A DNA stretch of 64,000 bases, taken from Chloranthus sessilifolius. Taxonomy: Eukaryota; Streptophyta; Magnoliopsida; Chloranthales; Chloranthaceae. The notes under the pieces are model-generated. The model had not been told where the DNA came from. It made no database searches and saw only the letters and a list, made by a program, of their open reading frames with translations. The position numbers and the translations under genes are program-made. Below are positions 7,406-58,752 of this stretch, in pieces. Every line of letters starts with the position of its first letter. Within the stretch, counting starts at the first letter, position 1. The stretch is from assembly GCA_021018995.1 (NCBI GenBank), contig CM037588.1:78403765-78467764 (forward strand). Direction: 5' to 3'.

Positions 7406-8497
7406 TGTGGTGTGACAGCCCGATTTTCCCAGCACATTTTTTTTCTTTAACACAGATCTTTGAGAAAATCAGACCGTCAGATTGTAGATCACAATCTGAT
7501 ACAGAATACTTGGTACATTCATACATATGCAAAAATTAAAGCAGATAATATATATGACATAATTAAAATCTCTAGTTCTAATATCCAATATGAACAGTAA
7601 CTAAAATAAACCATCCGTGATGGCCGGCTATCACTTAATAGTGGTGTACAATATGTGTATAATAGCATGAATGTACCAAGCCCAAATTTACCAAAATCCA
7701 CAATGTACTAAATCTACGATCCTTAAACTAGGGGTACAAATCCTCAGGCGGAATATCATCTTCAATACGTAGTCTGGATCTTCCTCAAAGCTAAGATCCT
7801 AATCAATACCTATACCTATGACGTATAGTCGGAGTGAGCTAACAGTCTAACCTCGGTGGAGAAAACTCAATACCAAGTACATCTTATCAGATCAATGCAT
7901 AGATTCAATGACCATAAATTAGAAAATATTTTCAAGTCAAAATAGAAACTGACTTTCAAAGCATTTTTCATATCAAACGGAAGCTGATTTTCATATTGAA
8001 AATGGAAACTGATTTTTTTAGTTCAAAGACAAGTTCATATCAAGACAAAGCCGAATTTCATGTCATACAAAAGACTAAATTTGCAAACTTGTCTTTGAAA
8101 ACATAGCCGAATTTCAAAGACAAGTTCATATCAAAACAAAATTTGTAATCTTAGGTTGAAAAGGACTAATTCGAAGGGCAATTTCATGTCATACAAAAGA
8201 CTAAATTTTGAAGGTATTTATCAAAAACATAAACTAATTTGCAGAAGCATTTTGTCTTAAAACAAGGACAATTTTCAAGTTCAGATTCAAATTCAAATTC
8301 GAAGCTCAATTATCAGATTCAGAGTCGATTATGAAATTTGGATTCAAAGTTTCAGATTCAGAGTTCTTATTCCTCTTCATATTCAATTTCACATATTTCG
8401 GGATTCAGTTATTCACTTTCCAATTACATGCTACTTATCAGGTAATGTAGGACTTAAATCGATTGACGGAGTTCGGTTCACTTATATGACTTACACA

Positions 8498-8890
8498 TTC
8501 GATTCATGGATATCCCGCAATGTTGGTTCGATTCATGGATTAACTGTCGTACCAATTCGATTCATGGATATCTTACTGCACTGGTTTAATTCACTTACAT
8601 ATAATCCGCCCTAGCGATTCACAATTGTACGAATAATTCGCCCTAGCAGACTACAAATACACATATAATCTGCCCTAGCGGTCCACAGTGTGTACATATA
8701 ATCTACCATAGCGGTCCACTTCAATTTTCTTGACTTATTATTCGATTCACGGATATGCCATTGTGCCGGTTCGATTCACTGATTAACTGCCGTACTAGTT
8801 TGATTCACGAATATACCGTCGTGCCGATTCGATTCATGGATTAACTCCCATACCAGTTCGATTCACGGATATGCCGCTGTGCTGGTTCGA
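8498..8890. repeat. 29-bp tandem repeat with alternating units in LTR J
   Basis: The word ttcgattca recurs every 29-30 bp (for example 8498, 8527, 8556, then 8741, 8770, 8799, 8828, 8857). The tails alternate between 'ggatatgccgctgtgccgg' and 'ggattaactgccgtaccag', giving a 58-bp higher-order unit. A second short repeat, 'ataatctgccctagcggtccac', interrupts it at about 8600-8720. Confidence 0.8.
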
Positions 8891-9240
8891 AGTTCAAAGA
8901 TTCAAAGGTTTGATGATTCAAAGATTCATTATTCACATCTTCTAAGTTCAAAGTTCATATTCGTGTTCAAAGTTCAAAGTTCATATCAGTTCATTACTAT
9001 TCATATCAAATTCATATTCAAAGTTCAATATTCAAGTCATGTTCATAGTTCGAAGTTCAGATTTTGTATCAGATTCAAATGCAAATATCAAGGTTCTAAT
9101 TTCAGATTCCTAGTTACAAATTCATATTCAAAATTCATATTCAGAGTTCATTTTTGAAGTTCATGTTCAAGGTTCAAACTCAAAGTTTAAGGATTCGATA
9201 ATTCAAATTTCAAAAGAAAAACTCATATTTCCAAATCAAT
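8880..9240. repeat. Degenerate 'ttcaaagttcatattc' low-complexity tract
   Basis: About 360 bp built of ttcaaag, ttcatat and ttcagat words, without fixed period. Similar words occur in the B LTRs (about 140-330 and 14080-14290). No frame is conserved. Confidence 0.7.
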
Positions 9241-11191
9241 TTCTAAGTGATCACCGTTCCATTCAAATACCTCATACAAATCTATGAATCGAAATCTAAT
9301 GTAATTGAGTATCAAATTTTCCAAAACAGTCAATTTCCATGTTTTAAAACCATTTTAAAATTAAACAAGTCAAATACTAGCTCAAAAGCAGTCAAACTTA
9401 TCCCATTTCATTTGATCATATCAAAGCATCTACGAAATTAGAGTAAAAAATGTGATTGAGTGTCGAATTTTCCCCACCTTGGTTCGATGTCTTGCGAAAA
9501 CAAAATGTGAAAAATCCTCACAAGCAGCCTCCAAGCAGCCTTCAACTCTTAATCTACATCACAACACGTGTATACATTACATGTTATTAACTAAAAGATC
9601 AAACATGTTGAAGTTCCTAAGTCTTTTCTTAAATTGAGGCGGAATGGACAAGTTCATACTAACATTGGATCATGTAGAACTTGTCCCTACTTTCCCCTAA
9701 AATTTGACCTTTAAGACACTTGATTTATGAGTTTCTTAATTCATACAAGTTGTAGAGCTCATTGTCCTCTTTCCACCGCAAGCATCGCGTAATTCTGAGT
9801 TCGGAATAAAAAGTTACGGCCAAAATACTGAGCTGGTTTCAGGTTAGCTCAGCTTGCTCTAGTGGCACATACAACCCAACTCGATCTGGCTTTTCCAAAG
9901 CCAAATAAGCCTAAAATTTGAGCTCGAGCTGGTGCTTCATGTGGGACCTAGCTCAAGCTGGCTCAAAGGGAGCTCGAGCTAGCTTTCCTGCATTCCAAAA
10001 TTCCAGGATTTGTTCTTCTTTCCCAAATTTCGACAAAACCATTACAAATGGACTTAATCAAAGTTAAAACACTTATATATGATTAATCCATGAAATTTAC
10101 CTTCTAATTCATGCATGTAAGATCCGCGATGATCAGATCGATGAAAATTGACGCTGAAGCTCTCGCTTGTCTTTGTGATGATTCGATCTCTCTAATCCAA
10201 ACCCGAATTTCTCGAATCCTTGCATGAGATCCAAACATACACACAATCAAATCTAAATTTCACATTTCCTCCTACGATCTATGCATGCATGTGAAGGGTT
10301 TCAGAATTTATCTTCTCAAATCGGGCACACAACGCCCACGATGATCGTATCCAAAATCCACGCCTTCAAGCTCACCATTCCTCCACCGATTTAAACCCTC
10401 GATTCTTTCGCTCGTAAAGGGTGTAGATCATGTCCTCTTGGCATACACAACAACCCCAAATGTTCTCTTGAGTGAATGAGGATAATTCAAATAGAGATCA
10501 ATGGCACTTGGGTCTCACTTGCAAAAGATGGTTTGGGAGAACTGGTTCTCTCTCCCTCTCTCTCTCTCTCTCTTATTTCTCTTGATTATAATCGCGCCGA
10601 GATTGACGTTTCCTTAAGACAAAATGAAGAAGAATATGATGTTTGCATGGAAAATTGGCAACACGAAGGAGAACACAAAGGGAACGAAGCTTTTCTCTCA
10701 AGCTCACCTCTTGCTCTTCTCTCTCTCTCAACATTTCTAGCAAATGAAACTTCCAAAAGAAGTTTCACTTATGTGTATGGGAATTGTTTTGGTGTGAAGC
10801 ATGCACACCAACTAGTGTGTTAGTCCTTATACAAATAAGCTTTAAGTCGGTGTGAAGCTCTAACATCTAAGTTGTGTATTTGTCACACATTCTAAGGTCC
10901 AAGTTAAGGCCCAACGTCGGCCCAATTAGTCAACGTATTCGGGTAGAGGCCCAAGTTTGCAAATTGGGCTCGGGTTCGTGTGTAACATGTACAAACACAC
11001 GTACACTCTACATAGGGTACAAGTTGGGATTAAATGTTCTTGGCACGTGCCCCCAATTATAACAAGTGAGGTTTTAAGGCCACATTATATAGGCCAAACA
11101 TTTGACTTGGGTCAAATCAGTCAAAAGGTCGCATTCTCGTCAAAGTTCAATGATTCAACACTTTAAAAAAATTTTGGGTAATTATTTGCGG

Positions 11192-13209: not shown

Positions 13210-14850
13210 ACTGTAACGACTCTAAAATTCCAACCAAAACACATGGAAATTCCTGGATCGCTAGATCATAGTTCATAATCAAATTATAGAAATTCTTTGG
13301 TATTTGATTAGAGAGCAAGCCATTTAACTAAATCAATTGCATAAAAGTCCATAATGAAACTTATAAAGTCCGAAAGTAAAACCACCGGTGACGGCTGTGT
13401 GTCACACATAGTGGTGCACAATATAGTAAAAAATAACGAATGTCTACTAAATCCATACATGTATCAAGTCTAAGTCTCCAAAGGAAATATAAGGGTAAAA
13501 CTCTTTCGATGGAAGATCAACTTCTTCTTTTGGTATAAAGTCAGGATCTTCTTCAAAAGTTGGATCTGGGACTACTTCTGACCTGTGACACATAGTGTCG
13601 AGGGTGAGCTAACAGTCTAAGCTTAGTAGGGCGATGCAATACACAATTATATTTCTCATGATCAAAGCATAGTTTCAATGATAGATTCGAAAGTATTCTT
13701 ATAATGACAAATTTTTTTTTTTGAAATATAAAGATCGAAAATATATATTTATAATGAATTTTATATGAGGTTTAATGGTGCTATCTCTTACAGTTCACGT
13801 GAGTATTCTTTTATTCTTAGCAAAATTTAGATGCTAAAATCATATCCAATGTGTGTCGTAAATTCATAACTTAAGTAATCTCTAGATCGCAAATATAGCG
13901 CTATAGCTGAAGTCAATATCGATGGGAATCCAAACCATCATCCTTCTAAGAACTATGTTCCAAAGTTTCCAAGCCCCTGCGTTGTGAGGGATACTTGTGC
14001 GTTCCAAAAGTCCAAAGGTGTCGAAGCACAAGATTTGTTCCACATAAATCTCTATAAATCACATGCTAAAATCTTACACATAATTCAAGGTTCATATATA
14101 AATCCAAAGAGTCCAAAGGTCCAAAGTGTCACGAATCCAAAGTTTCAAAAGTTTGAAATGGATAATTGCTTTAAAGAGTTCAAATTTAGATCTAATTCCA
14201 TATTAGAAATCAAATGCGGAAAACAATATCAAAATTTAGATGCAAGAAATTTCATAATTCAAAGTAGGTTCTAATATTCAATATTCAAAGTGATCCAAGT
14301 TTAGATGCAATAGAGTTCGGTGAGATCAATGCTATCATTTCACAGATTTATCATGAGAGTATCGCTAAATCCATGATTGAAAATTAAAAGAATATGATTA
14401 TGCATTGAATTTCCCCTACCTCAATTTCGAAGATTCTAAGGTACAAATTGAGCTACTTCCTTTGCAATATCTCAAGTTTTCTCTTCTATGGTCCATGCAC
14501 AATTTACACATAAAGGGAACAAATCGTCAAAGGTTCAAAATTGGTTAATTGAATCATATGGAAAAATATTCTGTTTTCTTCAGCATTTCACGCCATATGA
14601 CAATGAAGCGGTGGTCTTATGCACAAGAAGTCGTGGTCTGCTCACAACGAGTCAGGGTCTGCTCATTCACGAGCGGTGGTCTTATACTACTTCATTGCTA
14701 TGCTATGATAGCGAGATGTGGCCATGTTTACAACGAGCTGCAGATTTTTCCAAAGTGCCTTCTGTTTTTGGTATCCACAGCGAGCTGTCACATATATCAC
14801 AGCGAGCTATGGTTGTTTTCAAGTCCATTGGATGTTTCGACTTGAGCTAC

Positions 14851-16824
14851 TATTGAGCACTGAAATATACCACTTTTCACTTCTTAACCTAGCCTTTAAT
14901 AGACCTTTGAGCTAGTTAATAATGATTTTTAAGTATATTTTTATAAATAACAAGAAAATATAGCTTAATACAGCAATCCAACATTTCAAAGCCGAGAAGG
15001 AAGGATTTTGAGCCAAGCTGTGGAGATGATGGATTTATTGAGAATGCACCTGATGGTTCACATCATTGGGGCTGTTTTGCATGCATTGGGGGTCCTAGAG
15101 TCCTGCTGAGAGAAAAAGGTGGAGTTCAGAGTTTATGGAGTCCTCCTGCAGTGGAGTTAAATGGAATAATTGTGAGCACATTGCTGCTGTAGCAAATTAT
15201 TCAAAGAGCACAATAGCTACATCAATGCATTTATTTGCACCTTCAACAGCTCAGGTGAAGCACCAACCACTCAAGCACTGCTATTACTAAAAAGTATAGC
15301 CTCTTGAGTAACCCAACAACTTCTGCATTATACCCAATTGAGCAGCTCAATCACTTTGCATTCCACTTGTCGAGCCACAGTTGAAAGCAGCTGCATCTAC
15401 TCTATCGAGCTTCAAATCCAACCTGCATAACTGCTGCTTTGATGCACTCAAACAACCACTGTTGTTGCTGCCTTAATACATCCGAGCCACATTCCTGGAG
15501 CAGGAGTTGCTGTGTTGCAGCTTATAGAACAATTTTTCAAGCTATTGCAGCATTGAAACCAGCCACATGAGCTGCATGGAGAAGCAACATATCGAGCAGC
15601 AACATAGAACTAAACTTTACAAGCTACAGATGCTGGAGAACCATGCTGTAATGCTGAAGCATACAACCTCTCGAGCAGTTTAGTGCTGCATTAACCCATC
15701 TCGAGAGGTTGAGTGTACATGTTGAGCAGCTGTAATGTGAAGATTAATGCCCTCGAGTAGTTAAAGCTTAAAATGATCCAATCGAGCAGCTACTCGAGCT
15801 ACACATTTAATCCACTCGAGTGGATCCCTGTAGACTTGAACCTGTCGAGCTCCATTAAACCAGTCGAGCAGTTGTTGAATCAAGCTGCTGAATAACAACT
15901 TATAAACCAGGCCCTCGAGCAGTTCACAACTTTCAAGATAATCCTGTCGAGCAGTTGAGATTGAACCTCACGAGCAGCTGCAATTGATCTCGAGCAGTTT
16001 AAAGCATTGAAGACCATCTACTCGAGCAGCCTCTCGAGTTGAAGTGCTAAAGACTTTAATCCACTCGAGTGGTTACCTGCAGCTTACATTAAATACGCTC
16101 GAGCAACTGCAGTTAACCATCCACTCGAGCATCTTAAAGTGTTGCCTTTTCATCCTGTCGATCACTTATAGTGCTATTTTCATCCTGTCAAGCAACTTCT
16201 TGAGAACTTCTCAAGAATAAAATTTTGAACTTGTTTGAAGCTGTCATCTACTCGAGATTTAAAGTGCTGAAGCCATTTGCTCGAGGCACGGGTTCCAGTA
16301 GCAGCCTTCAAGCATTCAAGGGTATTTTTGGGATTCCACAACACCTAGGGCACACATCCCAAGGTGCTGAGCTGTCCCCCACTTCCCCAAAGCATCCCTT
16401 GGCTGAAAATAAGCCACGACAACAGCTCCAAGCATTACATTTTTGTTCTTTATTCTGATTGGGCAAGCTTGTAAATGCTTTATGGATTGTATAAATATAA
16501 CTATAGTTGTCTTCAGAAAGGAGCCAGGATTAGCCTGAGCTCACTTTTAGGCTTTTTATTTTAGGGTTTTAATTTCTTTTTATTTTCTTCTTTCTTCCTC
16601 CTTAGCTCAGCTACAAGGTTGGGTTAAAACTTTTGTGTAGCATCTAGGTTTAGTTTCAGTTTTTGCAATCGATTTTATAATAACATAGAGAGAAGTTTTG
16701 GACTCTTGCAAGGACTGCAGCATTGAGGGCCAATAATTGTAAATCCTTTTTAGTCAATGAAATGCCATTTTTAAAGCTTCATTAAATCTATATTTTTCTT
16801 ATATTTTTCACCTAGATCTGTGTG
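14851..16824 (+). mobile_element. Truncated Athila-type LTR inserted in the B 5' LTR
   Basis: Absent from the left B LTR, where gagctac runs straight into cccaaaa. It starts tattgagcactgaaatataccacttttcac, similar to the starts of G's LTR (49211) and the solo LTR at 42884. It has a TATA box (TATAAATA, 16490-16497) followed by the 'ggagccaggattagcctgagc' leader. The right end stops at 'agatctgtgtg', a position internal to the solo LTR at 42884, so the 3' part and TSD are lost. It carries a CTCGAG-based array at about 15640-16290. Confidence 0.75.
15640..16290. repeat. CTCGAG(CAG/TGG) palindrome array
   Basis: About twenty occurrences of ctcgagcag, tcgagcagtt or actcgagtgg over 650 bp, separated by unique sequence of 15-50 bp. 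The core CTCGAG is a perfect palindrome. The array lies in the LTR upstream of its TATA box. Confidence 0.85.
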
Positions 16825-17864
16825 CCCCAAAATGATATATTATAATGATCAATCAAACTTTTCCATCAAAAGTTATGGCCTTCTGAAGATGCTTTCTTTA
16901 GTGACAGTGAGCTACGGGTGTCTCCACAGCGAGCTATCATATATACCAAAATAGGCTGTGGTATTGTTTATAGCGAGCTACGGTGCCTGACAGCATGTTA
17001 TGACTAATGACAGTGCGCTGTGGTTTCTATCACAACGAGCTGTGATTACTATTTTCAGCATTTCGAACACTGCATGTTCTAGGTTCGATAATCAAAGTTT
17101 GAACACGAATCATTGGTTCCAACTTCAAGATCTTAGGTCCTTAATTTATGAAAAATAACATTGACACTAAGGAATCATAGATCCGATGATAAGAGATGGT
17201 GGATTTACCTCTCAAAGCGTGAAACTATAAATCGATCGGCAATACCTCGATGTTCCACTCATTCGTTCACGTTCCTTCTTCCTCTTGCATGTGGATGATC
17301 ATAGTGTCTTGTGGAAGAACACCTTAACGATCTTATGGAGGTTGAAGAATAATATGAAAAATGGTGGTAGGGTTTTCTTAAGGAGGAATTAAGAAGAATA
17401 AAAAGAGAAGATGCTAGGTTCTTATTTAAAGAGAAAACTAGGTTTTCTCTTACGGTTCCTTCTAATTAGAGTTTTAGAGGGTTTAGGAAATTAGAATCCT
17501 TGAGAACCCATAACTTTAGAAATTATACATGAGTTGCCTTTTCTAACATCTTAAGTAACATTCCAGTGTTAGGCTGGCACACCTAGCTTAGGTGTATATA
17601 TTTTTGCCATTCCCAAATAGAGATTTTTGAAGTCTCTAGCAAGGTTTGATCCCTAGACCTCTTGCTTAGAATCCAAACCTCTTACCACTGGTGCTCTCGC
17701 GAAGCTTGTGTAACTATTTACACAATTGTATATAAGAGTTATTTTTAGGCTAAGGTGCGTATTAAGTTTAAAAATATTTCAAAAATTAGTGGTCAGTGGT
17801 ATATGCCTTATTATGCATATACTTATATTGTGTGTATGGTGGTTTGAAAAATTGGGGTGTTACA

Positions 17865-19579
17865 TCGTCAACCCAAATCATCACAAAAACTGACTCACTC
17901 TTTAACAGGTGGGTGTCTCTCAATCCATCTTAAATTATTCAGTTATTTAAAAAAGAAATGAAACCCTAAATCAACCCCATACATAAATCAAGGAAGAATG
18001 AAATCTTAGACTGCGCAAGAAACTCGACCCGCACCTGAAATAACAAACTCGACCGGTTGAGATTCATATTATAGAAGGATCTTTATCATCTGCTTTATCT
18101 CGACCGACCAAAAATCAAATTGGACTAGTCGAGTTCATATTTTCTTTAGAAAAATTTCCTCTTTTAGATCTCGATCGATCGAAATCTAAATTGGACTAGT
18201 CGAGACTGATCTTCCTCTTTAGTCACTTCCAGGAAACTCAATCGGTCGAATGTCAATTTGACCGATCGAACTGTCAATTAGATCGGTCGAGTTTTGTCTT
18301 GCTTCGAAACTTACTTCCTTGATCTCGACCGGTCAAAAGTCAAATTTGACCAGTCGAGATGGGCTTTCTTCAGGGAACTCGACGGTCGAAACTCAATTTC
18401 AACCAGTCGAGATATGTTTTTTGTCTTAGTTTTCTTCTTCTCTAACCTCGATTTATCGAAGCCCAATTCAACCAGTCGAGATTGATAGTTTCAAAACTGT
18501 TTTCTTTACCAATTCAATCTTTGAGATCTTTTCGCGGGGACATCCGATTTAAGTGAAACAGGACTCAATCATATAGTTTTTGGACCTTCCAGACACAATG
18601 AAAATGTTTATTACCTCTTTTACGTCTCCTATAGTCCCTGTAAGGATATATGTGTCTCTTTAGGGTCTAAAACAAGTCCTATCGCTTTACAAATAAAACA
18701 ATAAGTTATACAGACACGACTACCTCCAAGGAAGAGCAGTTGGAACCAACCATAGAATAAAAGTATTTAACATATTTCTTATGCTTCGGTTGCCCTCAAT
18801 GTTTCATGTTCTATGCTACAAATGAATTTCATTATGTTCACAAAATGCTTAGGGTGCATGCGATAATTTCTTTCTTATATATGTTTTATCTTGTTCATAT
18901 GACATTCATCGCGTAGCAAACTACGATAGAGCATATGCATGATAAGTTAAGGAATAAGATACAACACATGATATAAGCTTTCGTCACGATGATATTTCTT
19001 TCACGGTCACATGAAACTTGGGATGTAGGCATCTATATATGGATGTAACACCTTTATGGGAGTATGGGCTGCCACACAAAGTACATCTAGGTTACTATAG
19101 AACCCATCTCTTGAAAAACGTGATTTAGTGAAGCCTATCGCACTGTGTCTCTCACTCCCATTAAGTTATAAGAAAAAGATGAGAAATGAATATGTTAAAT
19201 TACGGATACGATTAGAAGTGGGGACTTAAGCCTATGTCAATAATAAAATCGGGGCGAGGATCTAAGCCGAGAACCGAACAATGATATGATAAAATATACC
19301 GCGAATGCCAAATGAACAAGAATTAATTTCTACACGTGCCATACATTATGAGCCATCATAAGGGTCCGACGCCTGCAGTAGAGACGGGTCTTAAGGACAT
19401 TATGTTTAACTTTGTCTCGAACTAAGGGGACACTGAAGGTTTCGACTCAAGGGAACCGGCTGTATTGATGCGCATTTGATTGGATGGTTGTTTATGTTAT
19501 GTCATGAAGGTTAGGTGTTTATCGACACATGAACCTCTTATGGTACGCTTGAGCAACGACCTTGACACAGGACATTTAA
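17865..19579 (+). repeat. Element D 5' LTR, middle part
   Basis: Non-coding. 17867-17898 matches 38346-38377 of D's 3' LTR, so this is D LTR resuming to the right of element B. It contains a TCGACCGGTCGA palindrome array (18026-18485). It is cut at 19579 by solo LTR I with TSD TTTAA and continues at 33405. No gene is seen. Confidence 0.72.
18026..18485. repeat. TCGACCGGTCGA palindrome array in D LTR
   Basis: About twelve degenerate pairs such as ctcgaccggttgag, gactagtcgag, cgaccggtcaaaag and accagtcgagat, at 20-50 bp spacing. Half-sites 'cgaccg/gaccagtcg' are arranged as inverted repeats. Confidence 0.85.
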
Positions 19580-21462
19580 TATAACATCCCAAAACATTAG
19601 GCGTTGAACAATATTCTCGAGATGCGTACCCGATTGGTCATAGGTTTGACCGAGTGAAAGTCAATGTGATGACTATGATTCAACTTAGGTTGATGTTAAT
19701 AAGCATGTATGCATAGTATTAGAGCTAATTTATAGATAGCATACACCTATCTTTGGTGTATGTGCTTTACACCAAAGCTAGAGAGGAGTTAAGAGAAACA
19801 AATGACAGAAGAGAGTTAATTCTCTTTAAGTTTGGTTGGTGTAGAGTTTTGAAGAGAGAGAGAGAGTAAGAGGTGGAGTAAATGCTAGAGAGGTTGTGTT
19901 GATTGAGAATTGAAGAAGGGCTTGGGCAATTACTCCGGATATGACGCATTGGAGTTCGTGGGAGTCAGAGCTAGGAGTCCTAGACTTGAAGTGTAACAGC
20001 TGCCACATTCTGATCCTGACAATATCGAGTACGGACTCGAGTAGGGTCAGGCTTGTGCCAAAAACGAGACACAAAGAATTGATTTAGAATTTGAATGATG
20101 ACTATTAATAGTGGAACTTTTGTGGCCCAGTATGAATTATTAAGTGAAACAATGGTTTCATATATCTGGAGCCCTCCTTCAAGATGAAAATTTTGTAACA
20201 CAATTTTAAATAATGAATAGGACTGCTTGACACTGAGGGGTGTCAACCCTTTGACCCACAACCCATCAGTGCATATAAAGCATGTGCCTTGCCTCGGCAA
20301 GCAAAATAAGTTGCCTCGGCAACTGAGGCAAGCAAAAATGTAACAGATGGCCTACTCACAAACTCACCCTAAGTAAGCAGATCACGGGACAAGAATGACA
20401 TAGATCTAAACCACATATGTGGTCCCACATAGCTTATTTCATTATTAAGGCTACCCCAGCTAGCTTATACACTATATCTGTAAATATAGTTTAGTTGTCT
20501 TTTATGGTGTACATGAGACAAAATAGACCAACTTAGTTTTTTTTTCAAATAAACCAAGTGACTTTAAATTAAATTAATTAACTTATACCTGAGTGAGGCT
20601 ATATGGGTTTTATATGAGAAATAAAACCCATCTCACTTATACCTTAAGACCCTGTTCTAATAAGATACAAGAGATTTGCTGGTTTTGTTTTTTTATGCAA
20701 TACACTACATATGTAGTGTTGGGTTACATCGGATTGTAACCCCTTATAGCTAATAAGCTACTTGCAAGATAACTTCGCTCCACGACTCCAATGAGTCATT
20801 GCTCGCTTCATGCACGCAAGGTACAACTCCTCCGTTACAAAAATAACATAGTTTACTTCATTTTCTGGGTTATAATCCTGCTACATAAAACTGAAACCGA
20901 CAAGCAATCTTAGTTATATGTAAGAAAGCTACACCACTTTGAACCCTTGTACATTTCCCTGAGCATTTTAGAACTGAAACAACGATCAACCAATGAAAAT
21001 TAGTTTGCCGATATCAAGTGCTGTGCACTACGTTGGCATCATTAGCAGTCCATCCGTGAATCGATAAAAAGGTAAACACGAAGCACCTTCCTAAATTAAA
21101 AATAGCATATAAAGGATCCGAGTTTTATACTCTAGGGTATGGATTCTATCATCAACAAAATGAAATAGATCCTGCTAAGATAAGTAGCAATGGATATACT
21201 AATTTTCTCTGCAGGCCTGATAAACTAAGCTATATGGCTGCAAATTTCAGATTATTGCTTCATGCTATCTATAAATTTAGATAGATATATATTCAAAATA
21301 TATATACATATATATATATATTTATATACATATAAAATAAAATAAAAAGAAAAAAAAGAAAAAGAAAAAAGAAATATATATATATATATAACAAAACAAA
21401 GCTACAAAAATAATCACAAGACCAAGAAGAAGACCTACCTGAAGCCCGGCAAGCCTTATGTG

Positions 21463-21880
21463 TTGCCGCGGCAACCCCTATGCTCAGACCACTATGTGGT
21501 ATTTTGGTTATATCTTTTGACCCGACCTCCAAATGGCACAATTCTTGATGCGTTGGAAAGTAGACAACGAGACCTACAACTTTCATGAAGGAACCAATTT
21601 CTGAATCCAACGTTTAAGGGGTCAAATAGTAGTGACAAGTCGTGGCAACATGTAACTGTAAAGCTTGCCGCGGCAACAGTATACTCAGACTACTGTGTAG
21701 TATTTTAATCATACCTTTTGATCCTGAACTTGGATTGACACGATTCCTGATGAGTTGGAAAGGGGTCAACGAGCCCTATAACTTTCATGAAGGAACCAAT
21801 TTCTGAATCTAATGTTTAAAGGGTCAAAAAGTAGTGACAAGTCGCAGTAACATGCAACTGCAAAGCTTGCCGCGGCAACC
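21463..21880. repeat. Tandem ~202-bp unit: palindrome plus conserved block
   Basis: Two copies, each headed by TTGCCGCGGCAA, followed by 'actcagac(c/t)actRtgtRgtattttR', then 'ttggaaag...caacgag.cctacaactttcatgaaggaaccaatttctgaatc'. The block tcttttga ... gttggaaag occurs at 21512-21559 and 21714-21761 in the same 56-bp spacing. The equivalent copies in the 3' LTR are at about 28921-29335. Confidence 0.85.
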
Positions 21881-23097
21881 CTGTATTTGACGCGCTTGGT
21901 GACACCTCTGTGAGGGGTTTGTGCTGGGTTGACTTGTTGAGTTTGCCCATAAGACATGGGACCATAAATGGTCCATAATTGGGGTCTATGTTGACCCAAT
22001 AAACCATGAAAAATACTAAACCTATGAACGACAATTCTAGGTGCCACTTGGTGCACATGACGCATTTGCTTGAAGACATGCGTGCACGGGTAATCAGTTA
22101 CACATAAGCCTGGTATAAGGTAAGGAATTTACATTGTTAATTTATATTTTATTTTTGAATTCATTCCTGATTAGCAAATTATAATTATGCCTATGTTAGT
22201 TTAATCCATATGCTAGTTGTGCTAGTTCTGCTGAGGAATACTAAGTTGTGATGATGGTAAGATCAAAGCCATATATGTTTATACCATGAATATTGATGCT
22301 CGAACCATGCTAGTTCAGCTCGACATAGGATTATTCTATGAATGTATGTCAGCATGATAATCTTTGAATATAAAGGCAATTTTAAATCATAATTAGAGAT
22401 TTATAAGGATGCCAATCAATTTTATTGATGACAAACGCATGTGATAATGTCAGTTTGTATAATGAACTCCTGTCAGTTGGGATGGATATGATACTAATGA
22501 ATTCAGTGTTGATTAATGGTTAAATGATGATATTCAAATGTATAGGGATAACGGGATAATACTATATCAGTTCATAGGAATGGTTCTGATTAATAATGAT
22601 CATGTATTGCTCATGTATAATTATCATGGATAGAGATAGATGAATTTATGAATCATGATAAAAATATAGGTCAGATTTGACGTATGATTAATGAATGAAT
22701 ATGCTAGACCAGTTTTGATGAATAGTTAGCTCAGTTCAATAGATGAATATTAATGATTATGCTAATTTCAGTTTAAATGAATGCCTTTGCGTGACTATGC
22801 TCGTGTTAAGTTTTGAATGAATAAATATGCATGATAAGGATTCAAGCAGTGTGCCGTAGGACTATTAGGCTAATTCAGTTAGATGTGTGATTATAAATAA
22901 TGATACGATCAGTTATGTACGAATGATGATAAGCTCAGTTTTAACACATGAATATGAATAGTTATGCTAACTCAGTGATACTAGTTCAGTTTTGCTATAT
23001 CATATCTGTTCATGATGTTCTTGCATATATGTTAGCATGCATTGTTTATGTTCTGTTATCCTTGATATCATGTACACGTCTTTAATTCATCTTGAAA

Positions 23098-23280
23098 CAA
23101 GTGATCCCGCTATCTCGAGAGCTTGATATCCCATCCAAGTGATCCCACTAACTCGGGAGCTTGATATCCCGTCCAAGTGATCCCGCTAACTCGGGAGCTT
23201 GATATCTCGTCCAAGTGATCCCGCTAACTCGAGAGCTTGATTTCTCCGGTCCAAGTGATCCCGCTAACTCGGGAGCTTGA
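23098..23280. repeat. 38-bp tandem array, five copies (A 5' LTR)
   Basis: Five copies of caagtgatcccgctaactcgggagcttg plus a 'atatcccgtc'-type tail. Each unit has dyad symmetry. The 3' LTR has four copies. Confidence 0.93.
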
Positions 23281-23982
23281 TTTTCTTGTTTCTTGTTCTT
23301 GTACATGTTTTGTTTCAGCATGATTCATTGATCTCGCCTGATTCCTTGTCAGCATGAATATGTCAGCATTGTCAGCATGATACAATAATTGCATGATTTG
23401 GTGCTTGTTCTGTTATATACTGCTAGGATATATAGATGCTAGAATGGACCTAATATAAGATGACATGTGTTTCATTTTATTTTGCATCTAGACATGAATG
23501 GATAATCTAACATATAAATTAGCACTTTAAATTTTTCCTGCTGAGCTTTGATGATAGCTCATTCTACGACTTTATGTCTTAGCTGCAGATATTGCTCAAG
23601 ACCCTGAGCACGAAGCTGATCCTACCTACCAGTCTGAGGAGGAGGACGAGGAGGAAGGTTCTACTGAGGACTTCTTTCCTTGAGAGGTTTGGGAGAGATA
23701 GAGATTTGTTTTTGAAATATTAAATATATATAAACAGCAGTGTGATTTAAGATAATTTACTACTTCAGGTATAGGTTTCTGTTTATATTTCCTGTTCAAT
23801 TTATTGCTTTAGATAAAGGAATGGATATCAGTTGTTGCCATATTTCTTCGTATCAGAGTTAATTAAATTTGCTTCCGCATATGTAATACTTAGTACACGA
23901 TGCCCTTGTATGACAGGATCATGTTAGGTGATCCGACGGTGCGACCTTTCCCATTTATGAGAAGGGAAAAGTCGGTGTCATA

Positions 23983-24001
23983 TGAGTATCGAGCTGCGTT
24001 A
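23983..24001 (+). other. Element A primer-binding site (degenerate)
   Basis: Directly after the 5' LTR, tgagtatcgagctgcg resembles the initiator-Met PBS TGGTATCAGAGC with substitutions. The leader 24002-24298 holds no other feature I can support. Confidence 0.55.
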
Positions 24002-28758: not shown

Positions 28759-30581
28759 CAAAACAAAGCTATAAAAACAATCACAAGACCAAGAAGAAGA
28801 CCTACCTGAAGCCCGGCAAGCCAGGCTTTCAGCGGCAACCTCAAGGGGTTGCCACGGCAAGATCCTCTACTGAGTGGCTTGCCGCGGCAACCTCAAAGGG
28901 TTGCCTCGGCAAGCCTTATGTGTTGCCGCGGCAACCCCTATGCTCAGACCACTATGTGGTATTTTGATTATATCTTTTGACCCCGACCTCCAAATGGCAC
29001 GATTCGTGATGCGTTGGAAAGTAGACAACGAGACCTACAACTTTCATGAAGGAACCAATTTCTGAATCCAACGTTTAAGGGGTCAAATATTAGTGACAAA
29101 TAATAGAAATATGCAACTGTAAAGCTTGCCGCGGCAACAATATACTCAGACTACTGTGTAGTAGTTTAATCATATCTTTTGATCCCGAACTTGGATTGAC
29201 ATGACTCTTAATGAGTTGGAAAGGGGACAACGAGCCCTACAACTTTCATGAAGGAACCAATTTCTGAATCTAATGTGTAAAGGGTCAAAAAGTAGTGACA
29301 AGTCGTGGTAATATGCAACTGCAAAGCTTGCCGCGACAACCTATGTTGCTTGTCGCGGCAACCCTGTATTTGACACGCTTGGTGACACCTCTGTAAGGGG
29401 TTTGTGCTGGGTCGACTTGTTGAGTTTGCCCATATGACATGGGACCATAAATGGTCCATAATTGGGGTCTATGTTGACCCAATAAACCATTAAAAATACT
29501 AAACCTATGAATGACAATTCTAGGTGCCACTTGGTGCACATGACGCATTTGCTTGAAGACATGCGTGCACGGGTAATCAGTTACACATAAGCCTGGTATA
29601 AGGTAGGGAATTTACATTATTAATTTATATTTTATTTTTGAATTCATTCCTGATTAGCAAATTATAATTATGCCTATGTTAGTTTAATCCATATGCTAGT
29701 TGTGCTAGTTCTGCTGAGGAATACTAAGTTATGATGATGGTAAGATCAAAGCCATATATGTTTATATCATGAATATTGATGCTCGAACCATGCTAGTTCA
29801 GCTCGGCATAGGATTATTCTATGAATATATGTCAGCATGATAATCTTTGAATATAAAGGCAATTTTAAATGATAATTAGAGATTTATAAGGATGCCAATC
29901 AATTTTGTTGATGACAAACGCATGTGATAATGCCAGTTTGTATAATGAACTCCTGTCAGTTGGGATGGATATGATACTAATGAATTCAGTGTTGATTAAT
30001 GGTTAAATGATGATACTCAAATGTATAGGGATAACGGGATAATACTATATCAGTTCAGAGGAATGGTTCTGATTAATAATGATCATGTATTGCTCATGTA
30101 TAATTATCATGGATAGAGATAGATGAATTTATGAATCATGATGAAAATATAGGTCATATTTGACGTATGATTAATGAATGAATATGCTAGACCAGTTTTG
30201 ATGAATAGTTAGCTCAGTTCAATAGATGAATATTAATGATTATGCTAATTTCAGTTTAAATGAATGCCTTTGCATGACTATGCTCGTGTTATGTTTTGAA
30301 TGAATAAATATGCATGATAAGGATTCAAGCAGTGTGCCGTAGGACTATTAGGCTAATTCAATTAGATGTGTGATTATAAATAATGATACGATCAGTTATG
30401 TACGAATGATGATAAGCTCAGTTTTAACGCATGAATATGAATAGTTATGCTAACTCAGTGATACTAGTTCAGTTTTGCTATATCATATCTGTTCATGATG
30501 TTCTTGCATATATGTTAGCATGCATTGTTCATGTTCTGTTATCCTTGATATCATGTACACGTCTTTAATTCATCTTGAAAT

Positions 30582-38377: not shown

Positions 38378-39927
38378 TGATCATTTTATTTTAAAACCTT
38401 GCAAGTGCACAAGTTCGAATGTACTTGGGCGAGTACAAGGGTGTCGAATTACAGGGACTAGTCGTTTATTTTAAACTACAACCTTACTAGAAAGGGGGTT
38501 TTTATAATAGTAAAATTCTAATTATTCTAGCAAAGAAAATAGATTTGGAAAAAACTGAGAGAAAAGCCTGGGATGTCTCTTGGATCTCAGATTCATAAAT
38601 AATTCGCATCCTATTCCTAATCTATTTTGAATCCCTGGTACCCTCGCTCCTGGCTACAAATTCAGTTGCTTCGTATATGAATTAGAGAAACCTAATCGTG
38701 ACTTAGATAAATCTAATCGTTGAGAACCATTGCACGAATCAACAAAAACTACCCTACAAGGCCTAGTCCGTCGGTGAATATCCTATCTAGGCAAACTCCA
38801 ATCCCTACAAGGCCACTGAGATTATTCTAAACAGAATTACAACGTTACCATCTCGTTCTCGATCTAGTCGGAACCTCGAATGTGCAATCATATCATTAAT
38901 GGAATCCAAAATAAAAGAGAAACATAAATAAAGTTATTTACTTATCTTCAATCGTACAAGAGATCCCAAGCTTTAAGACGTTTAGCCGCGCATCATTTCC
39001 ATGATCTTCATCATCGCTGAATCGATCATAGAACCATGATTACAAAGTCCTCAATCTCACAAAGTCTCGCGGATCTGAAATCTAAACCTAAAACCTACGA
39101 GCAAAAAGTCCTATGGCTGAAAGCTATCTTATTCCTAATCTACGGTCCTTATTTATAAATGTATAAGGCCCTAGAATATTTATTTCTACTAGAAAACAAA
39201 CCCTTGAACGAAACTAATCTAAACTAGGAACGTAAAAGATCTTAGAGTCTTGATTTTAGGAAGAAATTCAGTTGTTCGCACCTGAAAATTAGCAAGAAAC
39301 CCAATCTGCACGCCTGCAGATCCGCAGAAAATCCCGCTTTCGACTGGTCGAGAATGAGGCTTGATCTGTCGAAATTACATATATATATATATAGATAAAA
39401 GACTTTGCTGCTATTGAGTTTCGATCGGTCCAGATTTGCATTTGGACCAGTTGAAACCTGAATTTATGAAGCATTAAAGAGCTAAAACGAACCAGATTCA
39501 CGCTCTGTTAATCCCAGACTCGACTGGTCGAAATTGCATTTTTGACCGGTCGAAACTACTTATTCTGCACTTTCCTGCATTTTTGTGCAAACTTCAATCG
39601 ACTGTAACTTTTGATATATAGCTCAAAATCTAGCGATTCTTGGCTCATTGGAAAGCTAGAAAAGGTCTTCTTTCCAATGGTATATACCTAAGCTCTAGAA
39701 GATTTATGTGTAAACTTTGGCACTCATATTTCTCTCCGCTATTCTGGTAGGTTCTTGTCATAGCCTCAAAACTCCTTTAACTTTGCTCTTTTAACACATT
39801 TATCGTTTATCTCGCTTTTACACCCATTGTAACACAACACAAACCAAAAGCACACATTAGTAGTTAAATGAGGGCTAACAATGTCAAGATTTGGGGATAA
39901 ATTATACTACTTTGGAGACCGATCACA
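38378..39927 (-). repeat. Element E 3' LTR (left)
   Basis: TGATCATTTTATTTTAAAACC ... GACCGATCACA. 38378-38648 aligns with 46636-46904. It contains a TATA-like ATTTATAAAT (39151-39160, minus sense), a TCGACTGGTCGA array (39335-39560) and the shared 56-bp block (about 39605-39675, minus sense). Confidence 0.85.
39335..39560. repeat. TCGACYGGTCGA palindrome array in E LTR
   Basis: Words tcgactggtcgag, gatctgtcgaaa, tcgatcggtccag, tggaccagttgaaa, tcgactggtcgaaa and gaccggtcgaaac. The same core as in the D LTR and in E's own internal array at 42490-42845. Confidence 0.85.
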
Positions 39928-39929
39928 CC

Positions 39930-40429: not shown

Positions 40430-40437
40430 CCCCTAGG

Positions 40438-42157: not shown

Positions 42158-42192
42158 AAAACCATAAGCAATGAAAATAACAAGAGGACAAA

Positions 42193-42297: not shown

Positions 42298-42489
42298 GAG
42301 GTGCGAAATGTCGAGCCTTCACGTTGAATATATGTGTGGAGCGAGGGAATGAGAAACAGTGATCGACACAGAGTGACAGAAGATGAGGTGGTACGCGTCA
42401 ATGAAGGTGTGTGTGGAGTGGAAGGTGAAATGGCACGCAAATGAATAAAAAATTTCAATAGTAAAACTGCGGGAGCTTAAGGAGTCGAG

Positions 42490-42845
42490 GAGTTAGGGTT
42501 TAGATTGGTCGAAATCTTAGACCGGTCAAAAATTAGATTTCGACCTATCACAGGACTTAAAATAGCCCTGGAACCCAAAACCTCGACCGGTTGAAGCCAT
42601 TTCGACTAGTCAAAATTATAAGAGAATATATACTCTCTTCCAACTTCTTCTATTCTGAAGCGCACTCCCATTCTTGATATGTCAAAACCATTTTGACCAG
42701 TCGAAGTTATAACAACAACTTTGTTTGCTGGTATAAAAATATAATTCCAACCGGTTGAGGCAACTTGACCAGTTAAAATTTGTCTCCTCACAGAGTTCCT
42801 GACCACATTGACAGGTCGAAATCAGTTTCGACCGGTCCAAATCTA
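42490..42845. repeat. TCGACCGGTCGA palindrome array in E internal region
   Basis: Words such as gattggtcgaaat, gaccggtcaaaa, ctcgaccggttgaag, tttgaccagtcgaag, caaccggttgagg and ttcgaccggtcc. Same core as in E's LTR. Confidence 0.85.
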
Positions 42846-42883
42846 GTAGAGAACATGGTTCTCAGCCCAGATTTCAAAGATAC

Positions 42884-45297: not shown

Positions 45298-45364
45298 CTT
45301 ACCTCATTTTATTTTCTTTATTTTCTTTATTTTTAAATTTTTTTTTTATATATATAATGTACAA

Positions 45365-45402
45365 GGGATTGGGTTGCCTCCCAAGAAGCGCTAAATTTCT
45401 TT
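45365..45402 (-). other. Conserved post-pol word of Athila-like elements
   Basis: Minus sense 'agcgcttcttgggaggcaacccaatccctt'. From memory, such a gcgcttnttgggaggcaaccc stretch follows the coding part in many Athila-like plant elements. It sits just after the 182-codon ORF and supports E as an Athila derivative whose gag-pol was replaced. Confidence 0.5.
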
Positions 45403-45426
45403 TTGCGGTCTTCAGCTAGACCACCC

Positions 45427-45975
45427 TCAAGCTTTGATAGGAACAAAGAAGGGCTGTTCATCTAGTAGGAATTGAATGTTGTCTTTATCACCTAAGGGCT
45501 TGAGGCTTTTAGTGGGTGGACTCTCATGCACCCAATAAACCATGATATATTCAGATTCATTGCATGTTGGGAATTTAGGAGTACCGAATACATTATTATT
45601 TAAAAAGAATTGACTTGAGGGTTTGTCGAAGCATTGTAAAAACGGATCACTGGGCACATAGAGTGCCCCATATGTAATGCTCGACTGCTCAGTCAATGTC
45701 AGACAAGGACTTGTATCCTCCTCATACAATTGTTCTTGAGGTATTAGAGGAGTAACACAAATTGGTTGGCTATCTTTTGGTGTTTCAATCTTATGTGGGC
45801 CAACCACATCTTCCTTGAAATCTACCTCCTGTCCGCCCCTAAGGGTCATGATTTCAACCTCAGGCACATGGGTGGGGGTAGTTTCTCCATTCAACTCTTG
45901 GTCTCGTGGGAAACTTATATGTTGGCTAGGGAAGGTATCTGCTTTTCTAAACTTGGTAGCGGGCAACAGCCTCAT
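45427..45975 (-). CDS. Unrecognised 182-codon ORF of element E
   Basis: Starts MRLLPATKFRKAD and ends LLDEQPFFVPIKA. It is hydrophilic, acidic in its middle part (VDFKEDVVG, YEEDTSPC) and has no protease, zinc-knuckle, RT or integrase motif I can see. It is the longest open frame in E and occupies the place where gag-pol should be, between the PBS (46635) and the post-pol word (45400). It could be an accessory or replacement ORF of a large retrotransposon derivative, or a Gag remnant too diverged to recognise. The open frame without stops is the main sign of constraint. Confidence 0.5.
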   Translation of the reverse strand: MRLLPATKFRKADTFPSQHISFPRDQELNGETTPTHVPEVEIMTLRGGQEVDFKEDVVGPHKIETPKDSQPICVTPLIPQEQLYEEDTSPCLTLTEQSSITYGALYVPSDPFLQCFDKPSSQFFLNNNVFGTPKFPTCNESEYIMVYWVHESPPTKSLKPLGDKDNIQFLLDEQPFFVPIKA

Positions 45976-46340
45976 TTGATGTTCAAGTTCTGTAATAGAT
46001 AGTTGTATAAGCTAAAATAGTTGACTAATTGGGAGTGGATATTTTTTTTTCATAGTTAAAATCCTGTCTTTTAAACCAGAACTCCATTGGTCTTGATATA
46101 TTTTAAACAGTGGTCCATAATATCAACCCACTGCCTCTTTAGGTGATTAACTTTTGCCCGAGAATGGACATATAATCAGAGATAATTAGCCGATTGGGCA
46201 TGGAGTTCTATCGCCTTAATTATCAAAGTCCGCAAGAAATCAGAACTCACTTGGGATCATGAATATTGTGGGTCACACTGAGGTTGGTTGGAAAATTTTG
46301 GCGCAAAAGGCTTATTTAATTCACAACCTCGATTTGGGAC

Positions 46341-46529
46341 TCACTGATTTGGACCATTGTCCCCATGTCCATCCCAATAGTGGTATGGAGTCTCATAATT
46401 AGACCCATAAGATGATGAGGGCATCGAATTTGTAGGAGCCCTAACTAGATTTGAAAACAGAGGCACGTACCTTGGCCTCTCACTTGCGTCCCCTTCGAAG
46501 CTTTGATATGCACGGACCTTGGTCTCCAA
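46341..46529 (-). CDS. Short unrecognised ORF of element E
   Basis: 62 codons, METKVRAYQSFEGDASERPR ... YHYWDGHGDNGPNQ, polar and rich in Ser, Tyr and Asn. It lies between PBS and the 182-codon ORF in the same sense, so it may be the first exon-like or upstream part of the same ancestral frame. No known domain seen. 45976-46340 between the two ORFs holds no other feature I can name. Confidence 0.35.
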   Translation of the reverse strand: METKVRAYQSFEGDASERPRYVPLFSNLVRAPTNSMPSSSYGSNYETPYHYWDGHGDNGPNQ

Positions 46530-46611
46530 ATCTTAAAAGAATAAATAAACTAGAATTAGAAAACTACTACTACAAACTAACTAAAAGGCAATAGCTCAAA
46601 TAAAACTGTAG

Positions 46612-46635
46612 TCCTTGACAATGGCACAAAAAACT
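46612..46635 (-). other. Element E primer-binding site (degenerate)
   Basis: Minus sense: ttttttgtgccattgtcaag directly inside the right LTR, a decayed form of the Athila/Tat PBS tggcgccgttgccgggg that element G keeps as tggtgccgtttccgggga. Confidence 0.65.
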
Positions 46636-46904
46636 TGATTATTTTATTTCAAAACCTTGCAAGTGCACAAGTTTGAATATACTTGGGCGAGTACAAGGCT
46701 GTCGAACCATGGGGACTAGTCGTTTATTTCAAACTATAACCTTACTATAAAGGGGAGTTTTATAATAGTAAAATTCTCATTATTCTAGCAAAGAAAACAA
46801 ATTTGGAAAATACTAAGAGACAAGCTTGGGATCTCTTTTGGATCTCAGATTCATAAATAACTCGTATCCTATTCCTAATCTATTTTGAATCCTTGGTACC
46901 CCCG
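46636..46904 (-). repeat. Element E 5' LTR (right), first part
   Basis: TTGATTATTTTATTTC... aligns with the left LTR up to 'ggtaccctcg' (38648) and is then cut by element F. The remainder lies beyond the window. Confidence 0.8.
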
Positions 46905-55860: not shown

Positions 55861-56589
55861 TTGCCAATATTGTACATTACCTTGCTGTGGGCAGGATCCC
55901 TCCACATTGGAACAAGAATGATAAAAATCTATTCTTCTCATAGATTCGATATTACATGTGGGAGGATCCTTACCTCTTTATGCATTGCACAGATCAGGTG
56001 ATCAGACGTTGTGTATCTGAAACTGAGTTTAAAAACATCCTAACCATATGCCATGAACAGGCTTGTGGGGGCCACTTCAGTGGTAACAAGACTGCGACGA
56101 AGGTGCTTCAAAGTGGTTTCTATTGGCCTACTCTATTCAAAGATGCCCGGCAGCACTGTAAAGCTTGTCCTCGATGCCAGCAAATGGGCAGCGATACAAA
56201 GAGAAACTCTATGCCCTTACAACCTATACTTGTTGTTGAACTGTTTGATATTTGGGGAATTGATTTTATAAGACCTTTTCCCCCTTCTTATGGATACAAT
56301 TTCATCCTTGTAGTTGTGGACTACGTGTCCAAATGGGTAGAGGTCATAACTACGAGGACAAATGACGACAAGGTTGTCATCCAATTCCTGAAAGACAACA
56401 TCTTCTCAAGATTTGGCATCCCTAAAGCTATTATTAGTGATAGAGGAAGCCACTTCTGTAATAAACCTTTTGATAAACTGATGGAAAGATACTCTGTGAC
56501 CCACAGAGTAGCCACCCCCTGCCACCCACAAACAAGTGGGCAAGTAGAGATTTCCAACAGGGAAATCAAACATATTCTCGAGAAGACTG
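55861..56589 (+). pseudogene. pol: Element G integrase, N-terminal and core part (interrupted by H)
   Basis: From 55956 the frame is open. The zinc domain has H at residue 33, H at 40, C at 71 and C at 74 (CHEQACGGH ... CPRCQ). The catalytic triad is complete: D103 (DIWGIDF), D162 (IISDRGSHF) and E198 (GQVEISN), with 35 residues between the last two. Upstream, 55861-55955 has two stops in the RNase H-integrase linker. The frame is cut at codon 212 by solo LTR H; after removal of H and one TSD copy the frame would continue exactly into 58199. Confidence 0.93.
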
Positions 56590-58193
56590 TGTAGACACCC
56601 AAATTCGGCCCAAGGCTCGATCAGTCTGTACTTCGAGAGAGATGTACCCTTGTGCTTCCGATGGCACCCCAGAACCCTTAGGAATCACCTTGAACCCTTA
56701 GGGATCTACCCAAACCTTTAGGAATCACCCTAAACCTGTTAGAACCATTCCCCAACCCTTAGAGATCACCTCTAAACCCTAGAATCCCTTCCCAGATCCA
56801 ACTTGAACCCTTCTGAGAAGATGATGGGATGAGAGCCACAAAATTTCACATAGACAATTACCATAGATGAGCCATATACCATTGGAAAGAGGACTTCTCC
56901 AGCTTTCCAACAAGCCAAAGATCACCCAATTTGGAGTTGCAAGTCAAAAGTTATGGCCGATTGAGGTTTCACATAAAATCATAGGACTTTTACTCAGGCG
57001 TAGATATTACATACGCCCAACCATTTTTGCCCTAGATTAGCCAGGCGTGTATATTATATACGCCTGCCTATTTTGGGTAAAATTTGGCCGGGTGTATATA
57101 ATATATATGCCCAGTATAGGTGGGACCCACCACCGGTTCCATCTTCTCAAAACTCCCCTGATTTTGGTGAAATTTACTGTTCCTAGCTGGCGATATAATA
57201 TATCGCCCACTCTGATGAATCATCCTCAAATTTCCTCCATCTATTTTGACCCTTTGACCATCCCCTTGGTTGAAGTGGGTGTCTTAAGGTTGGTTACACC
57301 CCCTTTGAGCTTATTGGCAACCCTTAAGTCACCCATGGCCTCACCCCATCATCCGCCATTGAAACCAGTTTCCTAAAACCCTAGGACCTTGAAAACCCAA
57401 AAAACCTTAGATGGGGGATTACCTAATTGCTAAACTAATTAGCCCTTAAGTAATCCCCTAACCCATCCCTTCTCTATAAATAGAGAGGCCCCCCTCTTCC
57501 CAAAGGGTTGAAGTTTTGGTTGAAAATTTAGTTGATTAGAGAGCTTAAGAGAGAGAAAGTCCTAGTGAGAGAAAATGCCATTTATTTTCCAAAATTCCAG
57601 CAAGCTTAGATCACCTATTCCACTCCATTTCAACCATGAGATCACCTTCTTTTAGCCAAAATCTATTCCCTAGCTTTACTCTACACCCCCTACCTATCAA
57701 ATCTTTGTATTAGAGTCCGTTTCCATACCATTCAAGCCATCGGAAGCACGCCAAAGCGAAGATCTTCCACGGTGCAACAAGGGCCCGTGAGCTCCGGCTC
57801 ACCCCTCTCTTCCTCTACCTTCTTGGTGTCTCCTCCGTCCAAGGATTCAAGCCGTTACGCCGCCAAAATTTCAGTTTGGCTCAAAGCTTGATAGGACCGT
57901 ATTGGCTTCGGGCAAGGGGAAACTCCGCCCTTTTTATTTTTATTTTGGCCATAGATAGAGACTGCTACGTGCGGGTTGATCGGGTGCCTAAACCCTTCCC
58001 GATCGATAACCGAAGCCCCTACCCTAGAGCCTTTCGCAAAGACCGGTAAGTCAGAGTCATATTTAGCACTTCGGTGCTCAAAATATCGATTTGAACGTTT
58101 CCCGGGTCACCAAAAGCTTTGGGTGGCGACTCTACATCTTATTAAAGGCGAGCGCATCGCCGCGATGGGTTCGAGAGGATCCATGGTCGTACA
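56590..58193 (+). mobile_element. Solo LTR H, Tat-like, inside element G integrase
   Basis: 1604 bp, TGTAGACACCCAAATTCGG ... GGTCGTACA, flanked by GACTG (56585-56589 and 58194-58198). TATA box TATAAATAG at 57475-57483. Near the end, 'gggtggcgactctacatctt ... gagcgcatcgccgcgatgggt' is a Tat-type LTR 3' part. It contains the 56-bp shared block (about 56901-56956) and a palindrome array (56996-57208). No coding capacity. Confidence 0.94.
56996..57208. repeat. GGCG-(TA)n-CGCC palindrome array in LTR H
   Basis: Four units: ggcgtagatattacatacgcc (about 56998-57017), ggcgtgtatattatatacgcc (57044-57064), gggtgtatataatatatatgccc (57090-57112) and ggcgatataatatatcgcc (57189-57207, a perfect 9-bp-arm palindrome). 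Confidence 0.92.
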
Positions 58194-58198
58194 GACTG

Positions 58199-58752
58199 TA
58201 AGAACTGATAGGAGGGATTGGTCCACAAAATTAACGGATGCCTTATGGGCTTATAGGACAGCCTATAAAACCCCCATAGGCATGTCCCCATTCAGACTAG
58301 TTTATGGCAAGGCATGTCACTTGCCTGTTGAATTGCAACACAAAGCATATTGGGCCATTGGAGCAATCAATTCTGACTTAAACTCCGCTGGTATACACAG
58401 GAAACTCCAGTTATCTGAGCTGGATGAATTGCGACTAGAAGCCTATGCAAATGCCCAAATTTACAAGGAGAAGACCAAAGCCTTCCATGACAGACACTTG
58501 CTACGGAAAGAATTCAAGCCAAATGACAAGGTATGGATGTTCAACTCCAGAATGAAGTTCTTTCCAGGAAAGTTACAGTCCAGATGGGATGGGCCTTTCA
58601 CAGTGGTACACATTTCTCCATTTGGAGTTGTCGAAGTCATGCACCCTACAGATGACAGAGTCATGAAGGTCAATGGTCAGAGGCTAAAACTTTGCGTCAA
58701 CAACATTTGTGAGCCTAAGGAGATCATTGATCTTCGGGATCCTCCAGGTTAA
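58199..58752 (+). pseudogene. pol: Element G integrase, C-terminal part
   Basis: Continues the integrase frame: [40 protein letters not shown], the Athila signature, then [58 protein letters not shown] (GPF/Y-like domain) and the end [16 protein letters not shown]. Open to the stop at 58750. No chromodomain, as usual for Athila. Confidence 0.93.

Follow-up and report, generated by a model that had tools for sequence, protein, structure and literature searches.

A constant 56-bp block beside an exchangeable palindrome zone: a candidate regulatory module in the LTRs of plant Gypsy retrotransposons

Why should the long terminal repeats (LTRs) of different retrotransposon lineages carry one and the same short block, next to palindromes that change from family to family? 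The question was raised by an initial annotation of a 64,000-nucleotide stretch of the Chloranthus sessilifolius genome (contig CM037588.1), the whole of which we call the window. A profile search of the window recovers seven full copies of the block (44-54 bits), within 2 bp of where the annotation had put them, and confirms that element B keeps only the end of it (15.2 bits), whereas the best score in 640 kb of control sequence is 12.7 bits; five of the seven copies were in the profile, and their scores are thus partly given by construction. The annotated length of 56 bp holds for H, for E and for all but one of the four A copies, and that of 53 bp for J; the A copy at 21560 has 55 bp (Table 1). 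Independently of the profile, the spaced pattern CTTTCCAA-N30..48-AAAAGTTATGRCC, which permits total lengths of 51-69 bp, has 3471 matches in the 2.17-Gb genome and none in the reversed control, and among 100 matches listed the total length is 56 bp in 94, 57 bp in four and 55 bp in two. The count is a lower bound for blocks, since this strict pattern fits 13 of 20 family T copies and none of 14 family J copies found with longer queries. The 15-mer TCAAAAGTTATGGCC by itself occurs 2071 times (reversed control: 0). The block is therefore, as the annotation had expected, far commoner than chance, and it is present in LTRs of several lineages and in both orientations; this applies to one genome, with many loci being the first matches of one contig and the representatives including related families. 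In a prokaryote collection, a near-identical pattern gave 11 matches of 52-57 bp against about 7 expected by a hand estimate, and one of these, when inspected, resembles bacterial coding sequence; viral contigs gave no match to the near-identical spaced pattern. Titles and abstract openings of the literature searched, whose coverage leaves out most subscription journals, contained no description of the block.

Table 1. Positions of LTRs, block copies and palindromes in the window
Feature	Position	Strand	Remarks
Solo LTR J, inserted into B pol region	7411..11186	-	near-matching target duplication TGTGG/TGCGG
Block, J copy, 53 bp, antisense to its LTR	9769..9821	+	
J palindromes, CCAGCTCGAGCTGG-like	9876..9961	.	
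5' LTR of element B	13213..17866	-	interrupted by insertion at about 14851-16824; pol on minus strand
3' half of block in B, antisense	16849..16880	+	
B palindromes, CACAGCGCGCTGTG-like, 2-3 mismatches each	16925..17044	.	also from relative L002
5' LTR of element A (Tekay-like)	19992..23985	+	self-comparison and ends; ends approximate
Block, A copy 2, antisense, 55 bp	21506..21560	-	
Block, A copy 1, antisense, 56 bp	21707..21762	-	
A palindromes TTGCCGCGGCAA, one per 202-bp unit	21463..21878; 3' LTR 28849-29361	.	
3' LTR of element A	about 27336-31427	+	self-comparison
Block, A copy 4, 3' LTR, antisense, 56 bp	28966..29021	-	
Block, A copy 3, 3' LTR, antisense, 56 bp	29168..29223	-	
3' LTR of element E (Athila/Tat-like)	38378..39925	-	sense to its block
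Palindrome array of E, TTTCGACCGGTCGAAA-like	39338..39555	-	
56-bp block, E copy, sense	39600..39655	-	
Second array of E word, in E internal region	42499..42841	-	no block nearby by profile search
Target-site duplication GACTG of T	left 56584..56588, right 58194-58198	.	read from sequence
Solo LTR, family T (Ogre/Tat-like), nested in integrase of element H	56589..58193	+	
56-bp block, H/T copy, sense	56903-56958	+	CTTTCC starts at 56903
Palindrome array of T, GGCGTATAT..ATATACGCC-like	56997..57210	+	three close copies and a variant fourth; also from relative L057
TATA-like box CTATAAATAG of T LTR	57474..57483	+	pattern match

Which elements own these copies? The lineage names Tekay, Athila, Tat and Ogre follow from PBS and PPT types together with what we take to be the typical domain order, and from no reference tree. 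On this basis E is Athila/Tat-like and A and B are Tekay-like, in agreement with the annotation, whereas the copy ascribed to a Tat-like element H sits in a nested solo LTR of another family, T, with TG...CA ends and the 5-bp target duplication GACTG, at the point where the integrase reading frame of H ends. A location in H's own LTR or own internal region was accordingly rejected; the H host LTR, scanned end to end, has neither a block nor an array of three or more. An open frame of 265 aa (57955-58749), which crosses the end of the solo LTR and is without Pfam match, is probably spurious. Near end-to-end matches to the T stretch were found in 18 of 19 other copies (L060 shares only the first 750 bp). 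Because five of these 19 copies (L058, L061, L063, L064, L072) are followed by PBS-like GGCGACTCTGCTGGGGAT, altered in a few positions at most, and ten are preceded by a nearly identical PPT-like stretch, the T block is in sense orientation, 314 bp from the LTR start.

The block of E is likewise sense, since its 3' LTR starts with TGATCGG directly after a PPT-like run and the 3' part of the LTR recurs at 46636-46904 adjoining PBS-like sequence; it lies 270 bp from the LTR start. Element E (38378-46904) has no recognisable pol, with no Pfam family in three frames tested and no tblastn match, and is possibly non-autonomous. Besides its two arrays in Table 1, of which the internal one has no block nearby by profile search, the E word occupies a third place in the window (18169-18397); beside this array (18169-18566) there is a 7.8-bit profile match, a score within the chance range, which may be the trace of a decayed block or fortuitous. 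When half-sites are shuffled, the resulting words average 0.15 matches per window (maximum 2) versus 13 for the E word, and 0.03 (maximum 1) versus 17 for the A word.

In A and B, pol lies on the strand opposite to the blocks (for A, on the plus strand between the two LTRs), and the same is true of the PBS in L084, the relative from which the strand of J was taken, and in L026 of the L014 family. All these blocks are antisense, so that the annotated orientations, sense in E and H and antisense in A, B and J, hold on the evidence of PBS, PPT and pol strand. J is in a Tekay-like LTR as annotated, but as a solo LTR nested in B. RT precedes the integrase end domain in A and B, which is the Gypsy order; no pol was seen for T, E and the L033 lineage. 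Two one-mismatch copies of the A word are located at 20289-20322, near the LTR start (300 bp into the A LTR), and another palindromic word (CAAGCTC..GAGCTTG) is repeated every 38-40 bp at 23110-23279. The 3' block half of B is also kept in relatives L002 and L005. Two further insertions split the two LTRs of B (988-3587 and 14851-16824); A's word occurs three times in the first of them, at 2635-2698.

In Athila-, Tat- and Ogre-like LTRs the block is in sense and begins some 270-315 bp into the LTR, and a PBS or PPT accompanies it in T, E, L034, L038 and L007; in L034 and L038, the orientation follows from a PPT like that of E ahead of an LTR start at -272. The LTR of the L016 family, assigned Tekay-like by its ends and by flanks common to L014, matches the Athila-like LTR L030 in reverse, from its TG end at -273 to +186, at 78% identity. 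The L016 block thus came in with the reversed end of a foreign LTR, and one Tekay-like family has captured the first ~460 bp of an Athila-like LTR. For A, J and L014, the stretch in common with Athila-like LTRs is -136..+65 or shorter, and an older capture is likely to stand behind their antisense blocks. The annotation had named as a refutation that all copies derive from one nested LTR fragment: this applies to the L016 family, because its antisense block came with the foreign piece. The sense lineages are not affected, as their block lies about 270-315 bp into LTRs of their own. Near the start of L014-, L016-, L028- and L037-type LTRs we also observed a weak sense block-like copy (9-16 bits; control maximum 12.7), about +700..+1070 from the block on the opposite strand and ending in AAAAAGTTATGCCC. 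Tentatively, this second copy could be an ancestral sense one.

Conservation peaks in the block. Over 18 representatives the block carries a mean of 1.18 bits per column, compared with 0.67 in the 50 bp before it and 0.31 from -110 to -50, and downstream the values fall to 0.49 at +56..+75 and 0.17 at +75..+150, which bears out the supposed excess over the flanking LTR; in most rows the search itself had set 21 anchor positions, and the other 35 columns average about 0.9 bits by hand sum. Among copies of family T, diversity in the block (0.043) is barely lower than around it (0.046-0.063 upstream, 0.030 in the next 34 bp, 0.058-0.113 beyond). Block and zone show no CpG depletion, with observed/expected ratios of 1.11 and 1.03 versus 0.60-0.77 elsewhere. 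The 3' end of the block is also where the homology of diverged LTRs mostly stops. A profile match was obtained in 69 of 72 genome loci examined (all except L001, L006 and L008), and these together with three window segments gave 972 pairs aligned across the block, which include related families and are not independent. The alignment ends at +60..+76 in 430 of 600 pairs below 80% identity, in 67 of 167 pairs at 80-90% and in none of 205 pairs above 90%. Left ends of the pairs below 80% range from about -300 to -20 and are not fully scattered, 383 of 600 falling between -150 and -60.

What follows the block is a variable zone, starting from about +65, that often contains 3-11 copies of one palindromic word, which usually includes a CpG; the copies are frequently 20-22 bp apart. 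L010 and L033 are 85-88% identical over -272..+107 and +307..+1480 but only 38-48% in 60-bp bins from +120 to +300, so that about 200 bp are unrelated; here L010 carries GTCGATCGATCGAC and L033 TCAATCGATTGA. L010 has its zone in common with L038, and compared with L020 it is 62-72% alike in the zone and mostly 82-93% outside. Homology between T and L011 extends to +61 and resumes from +409, and a like gap is seen in L004/L030 and L016/L037. In these comparisons it is the palindrome zone of the LTR that has been exchanged; among all 526 pairs with a block alignment ending at +58..+80, collinear homology picks up again downstream in 50 but not in the other 476. A second palindromic word of L010 (TTGATCT.AGATCAA, four copies) lies at +800..+1100 from the block.

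Among 21 representatives, a palindromic word present at least three times occurs downstream of the block in 13, upstream in none and further away in one, and 0 of 84 shuffles have such arrays; this test used spacers of 0-3, as perfect even-centred palindromes miss odd-centred words such as that of T. The annotation had placed an array directly after every block. This universal form was rejected, for in a set of 30 loci not chosen for arrays three or more copies are present downstream in eight, upstream in none and further away in two, leaving 22 blocks with fewer than three copies downstream. L014- and L016-type LTRs have no array of three. End-to-end scans of eight LTR stretches placed an array of three or more beside the block in J, T and L033, elsewhere in A, and nowhere in L037, two pieces of B and the H host LTR. 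Of 26 intervals in ten word families, 9 measure 19-23 bp, against a mean of 1.8 under random placement that reached this number in 0 of 4000 trials; L032 was set apart (10 intervals, nearly all 19-21), and L013 and L007 were left out as close relatives. All 11 words listed, with hand-chosen borders, contain CpG, and the shorter words of L011 and L007 are without it. The mobile or recombining cassette that the annotation had suggested is borne out in two respects that it had not described, namely the exchange of the zone (L010/L033) and, in at least one Tekay-like family (L016), the entry of the antisense block with a foreign LTR piece; a universal array is not supported.

Taken together, we favour, with a probability of roughly 0.6, that block and swappable palindromes form a two-part regulatory module in the U3 of plant Gypsy LTRs. 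The block would be the constant half of this module in the upstream (U3) half of the LTR, and its native position would be the sense one of the Athila-, Tat- and Ogre-like LTRs, ahead of TATA-like boxes. Block and zone precede TATA-like boxes, as pattern matches, in T and in Athila-like LTRs (ambiguously in Tekay-like ones), the array lies between the two in T and L033, and the box CTATAAATAG recurs in relatives L007, L011 and L057. DNA-bound dimeric proteins are the likeliest readers, because the module occurs in both orientations, the spacing is near-helical and the words are symmetric. A factor common to all families might bind the block as double-stranded DNA, dimeric sequence-specific proteins might bind the palindromes, and both together would drive the promoter of the element. 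By replacing the zone and keeping the rest of the LTR, families could change their regulator or escape host silencing, as in an arms race. Tekay-like LTRs would have gained the module in reverse through a foreign LTR piece, as shown for one family and presumed for the others, and its retention there would fit an orientation-independent enhancer. More tentatively, and with considerable doubt, the exchangeable array may be a family-specific address, recognised by a DNA-binding protein of its own, beside a block read by the common factor; new families would arise by address swap, comparable to swaps of specificity domains in other systems, and even unrelated lineages would gain the module by capture of one another's LTR ends.

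Could the block simply be an old homologous stretch of non-chromovirus LTRs, spread in pieces by common descent and nested insertion and without present function? The L016 family, which holds -273..+186 of an Athila-like LTR from its TG end, and the longer piece (up to about -136..+65) that other Tekay-like LTRs share with Athila-like ones speak for this. Nevertheless, we regard it as unlikely, since the block has stayed alignable and nearly fixed in length across families while its flanks were lost, occupies a similar place in the sense lineages, and is kept, with its own palindromes, in two copies per LTR in A and in two copies in L032. Still less probable is a module acting as RNA, in which the palindromes would be signals for dimerisation or packaging, or small-RNA hairpins, and the block a leader. 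The zone is more stable than shuffles in most of 18 loci (median z about -3.4), and palindrome clusters of maize Sireviruses coincide with an excess of small RNAs (Bousios 2016, as cited in an excerpt of PMC10760457). However, structure prediction on 22 sequences gave no conserved base pair in the block on either strand, the block has opposite orientations in two lineages, a spacing of 20-22 bp suits DNA binding, and in T block and array are upstream of the TATA-like box. An origin of the block from an RNA gene was rejected for want of conserved structure, and because the eight Rfam matches in seven loci were all under the curated score and none covered the block. As the zone would fold strongly if transcribed, it may have a role as RNA, and since it does so in many families, small-RNA effects, which the same excerpt describes as proposed for Sireviruses (PMC10760457), may add pressure to replace it. 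A small mobile element in its own right, SINE-like or MITE-like, inserting into LTRs would explain the sharp 3' boundary with a more variable 5' extent and the two orientations, but is highly improbable given that different sense families have the block about equally far from the LTR start, that no common tail follows it and that no Rfam family matched it in seven loci.

The constant block offers an anchor to find, align and orient long plant Gypsy LTRs, which are otherwise hard to model (according to an excerpt of PMC3601003, length variation of plant Metaviridae prevented model building in a study of LTR structure), and it flags the site of possible regulatory change. Since sister LTRs differ mainly in the palindrome zone, this zone is a natural experiment in cis-regulatory replacement. 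Should the palindromes be binding sites, it can be asked directly what proteins recognise them and whether host silencing is followed by replacement.

Cassandra elements carry a conserved 5S rDNA promoter in the LTR, as far as the excerpt of PMC10853983 goes, and resemble our case as a conserved regulatory stretch carried in LTRs, but differ in that no RNA-gene family matches the block. QuinCent, a 162-bp LTR motif of RLG_Quinta in einkorn wheat, is also conserved and is thought to affect chromatin regardless of strand; in contrast to the block, it belongs to a single, centromeric family, and the parts of the article at hand describe no palindrome swap (PMC11302176). Sireviruses, which are Ty1/copia and not Gypsy elements, have family-specific palindromic words in many LTR copies, which start 200-400 bp inside the LTR, upstream of the TATA box, border CpG islands and recur in the internal region of elements with env (PMC2829016). 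Similarly, a palindromic word is repeated upstream of a TATA-like box in T and L033, and a second array lies in the internal region of E, the sole family whose internal region was examined. A CGG-CCG core is present in 12 of 13 published Sirevirus words (PMC2829016) and absent from GTCGATCGATCGAC, TCAATCGATTGA and CCAGCTCGAGCTGG, the E word having CCGG only, and the sections of that article at hand mention no constant 56-bp block. The Tnd-1 word ACAATCGATTGT (PMC2829016) shares the ten bases CAATCGATTG with the L033 word, which may be due to chance or to a common binding protein. We favour reading the proposed module as the Gypsy equivalent of the palindromic repeats of Sireviruses.
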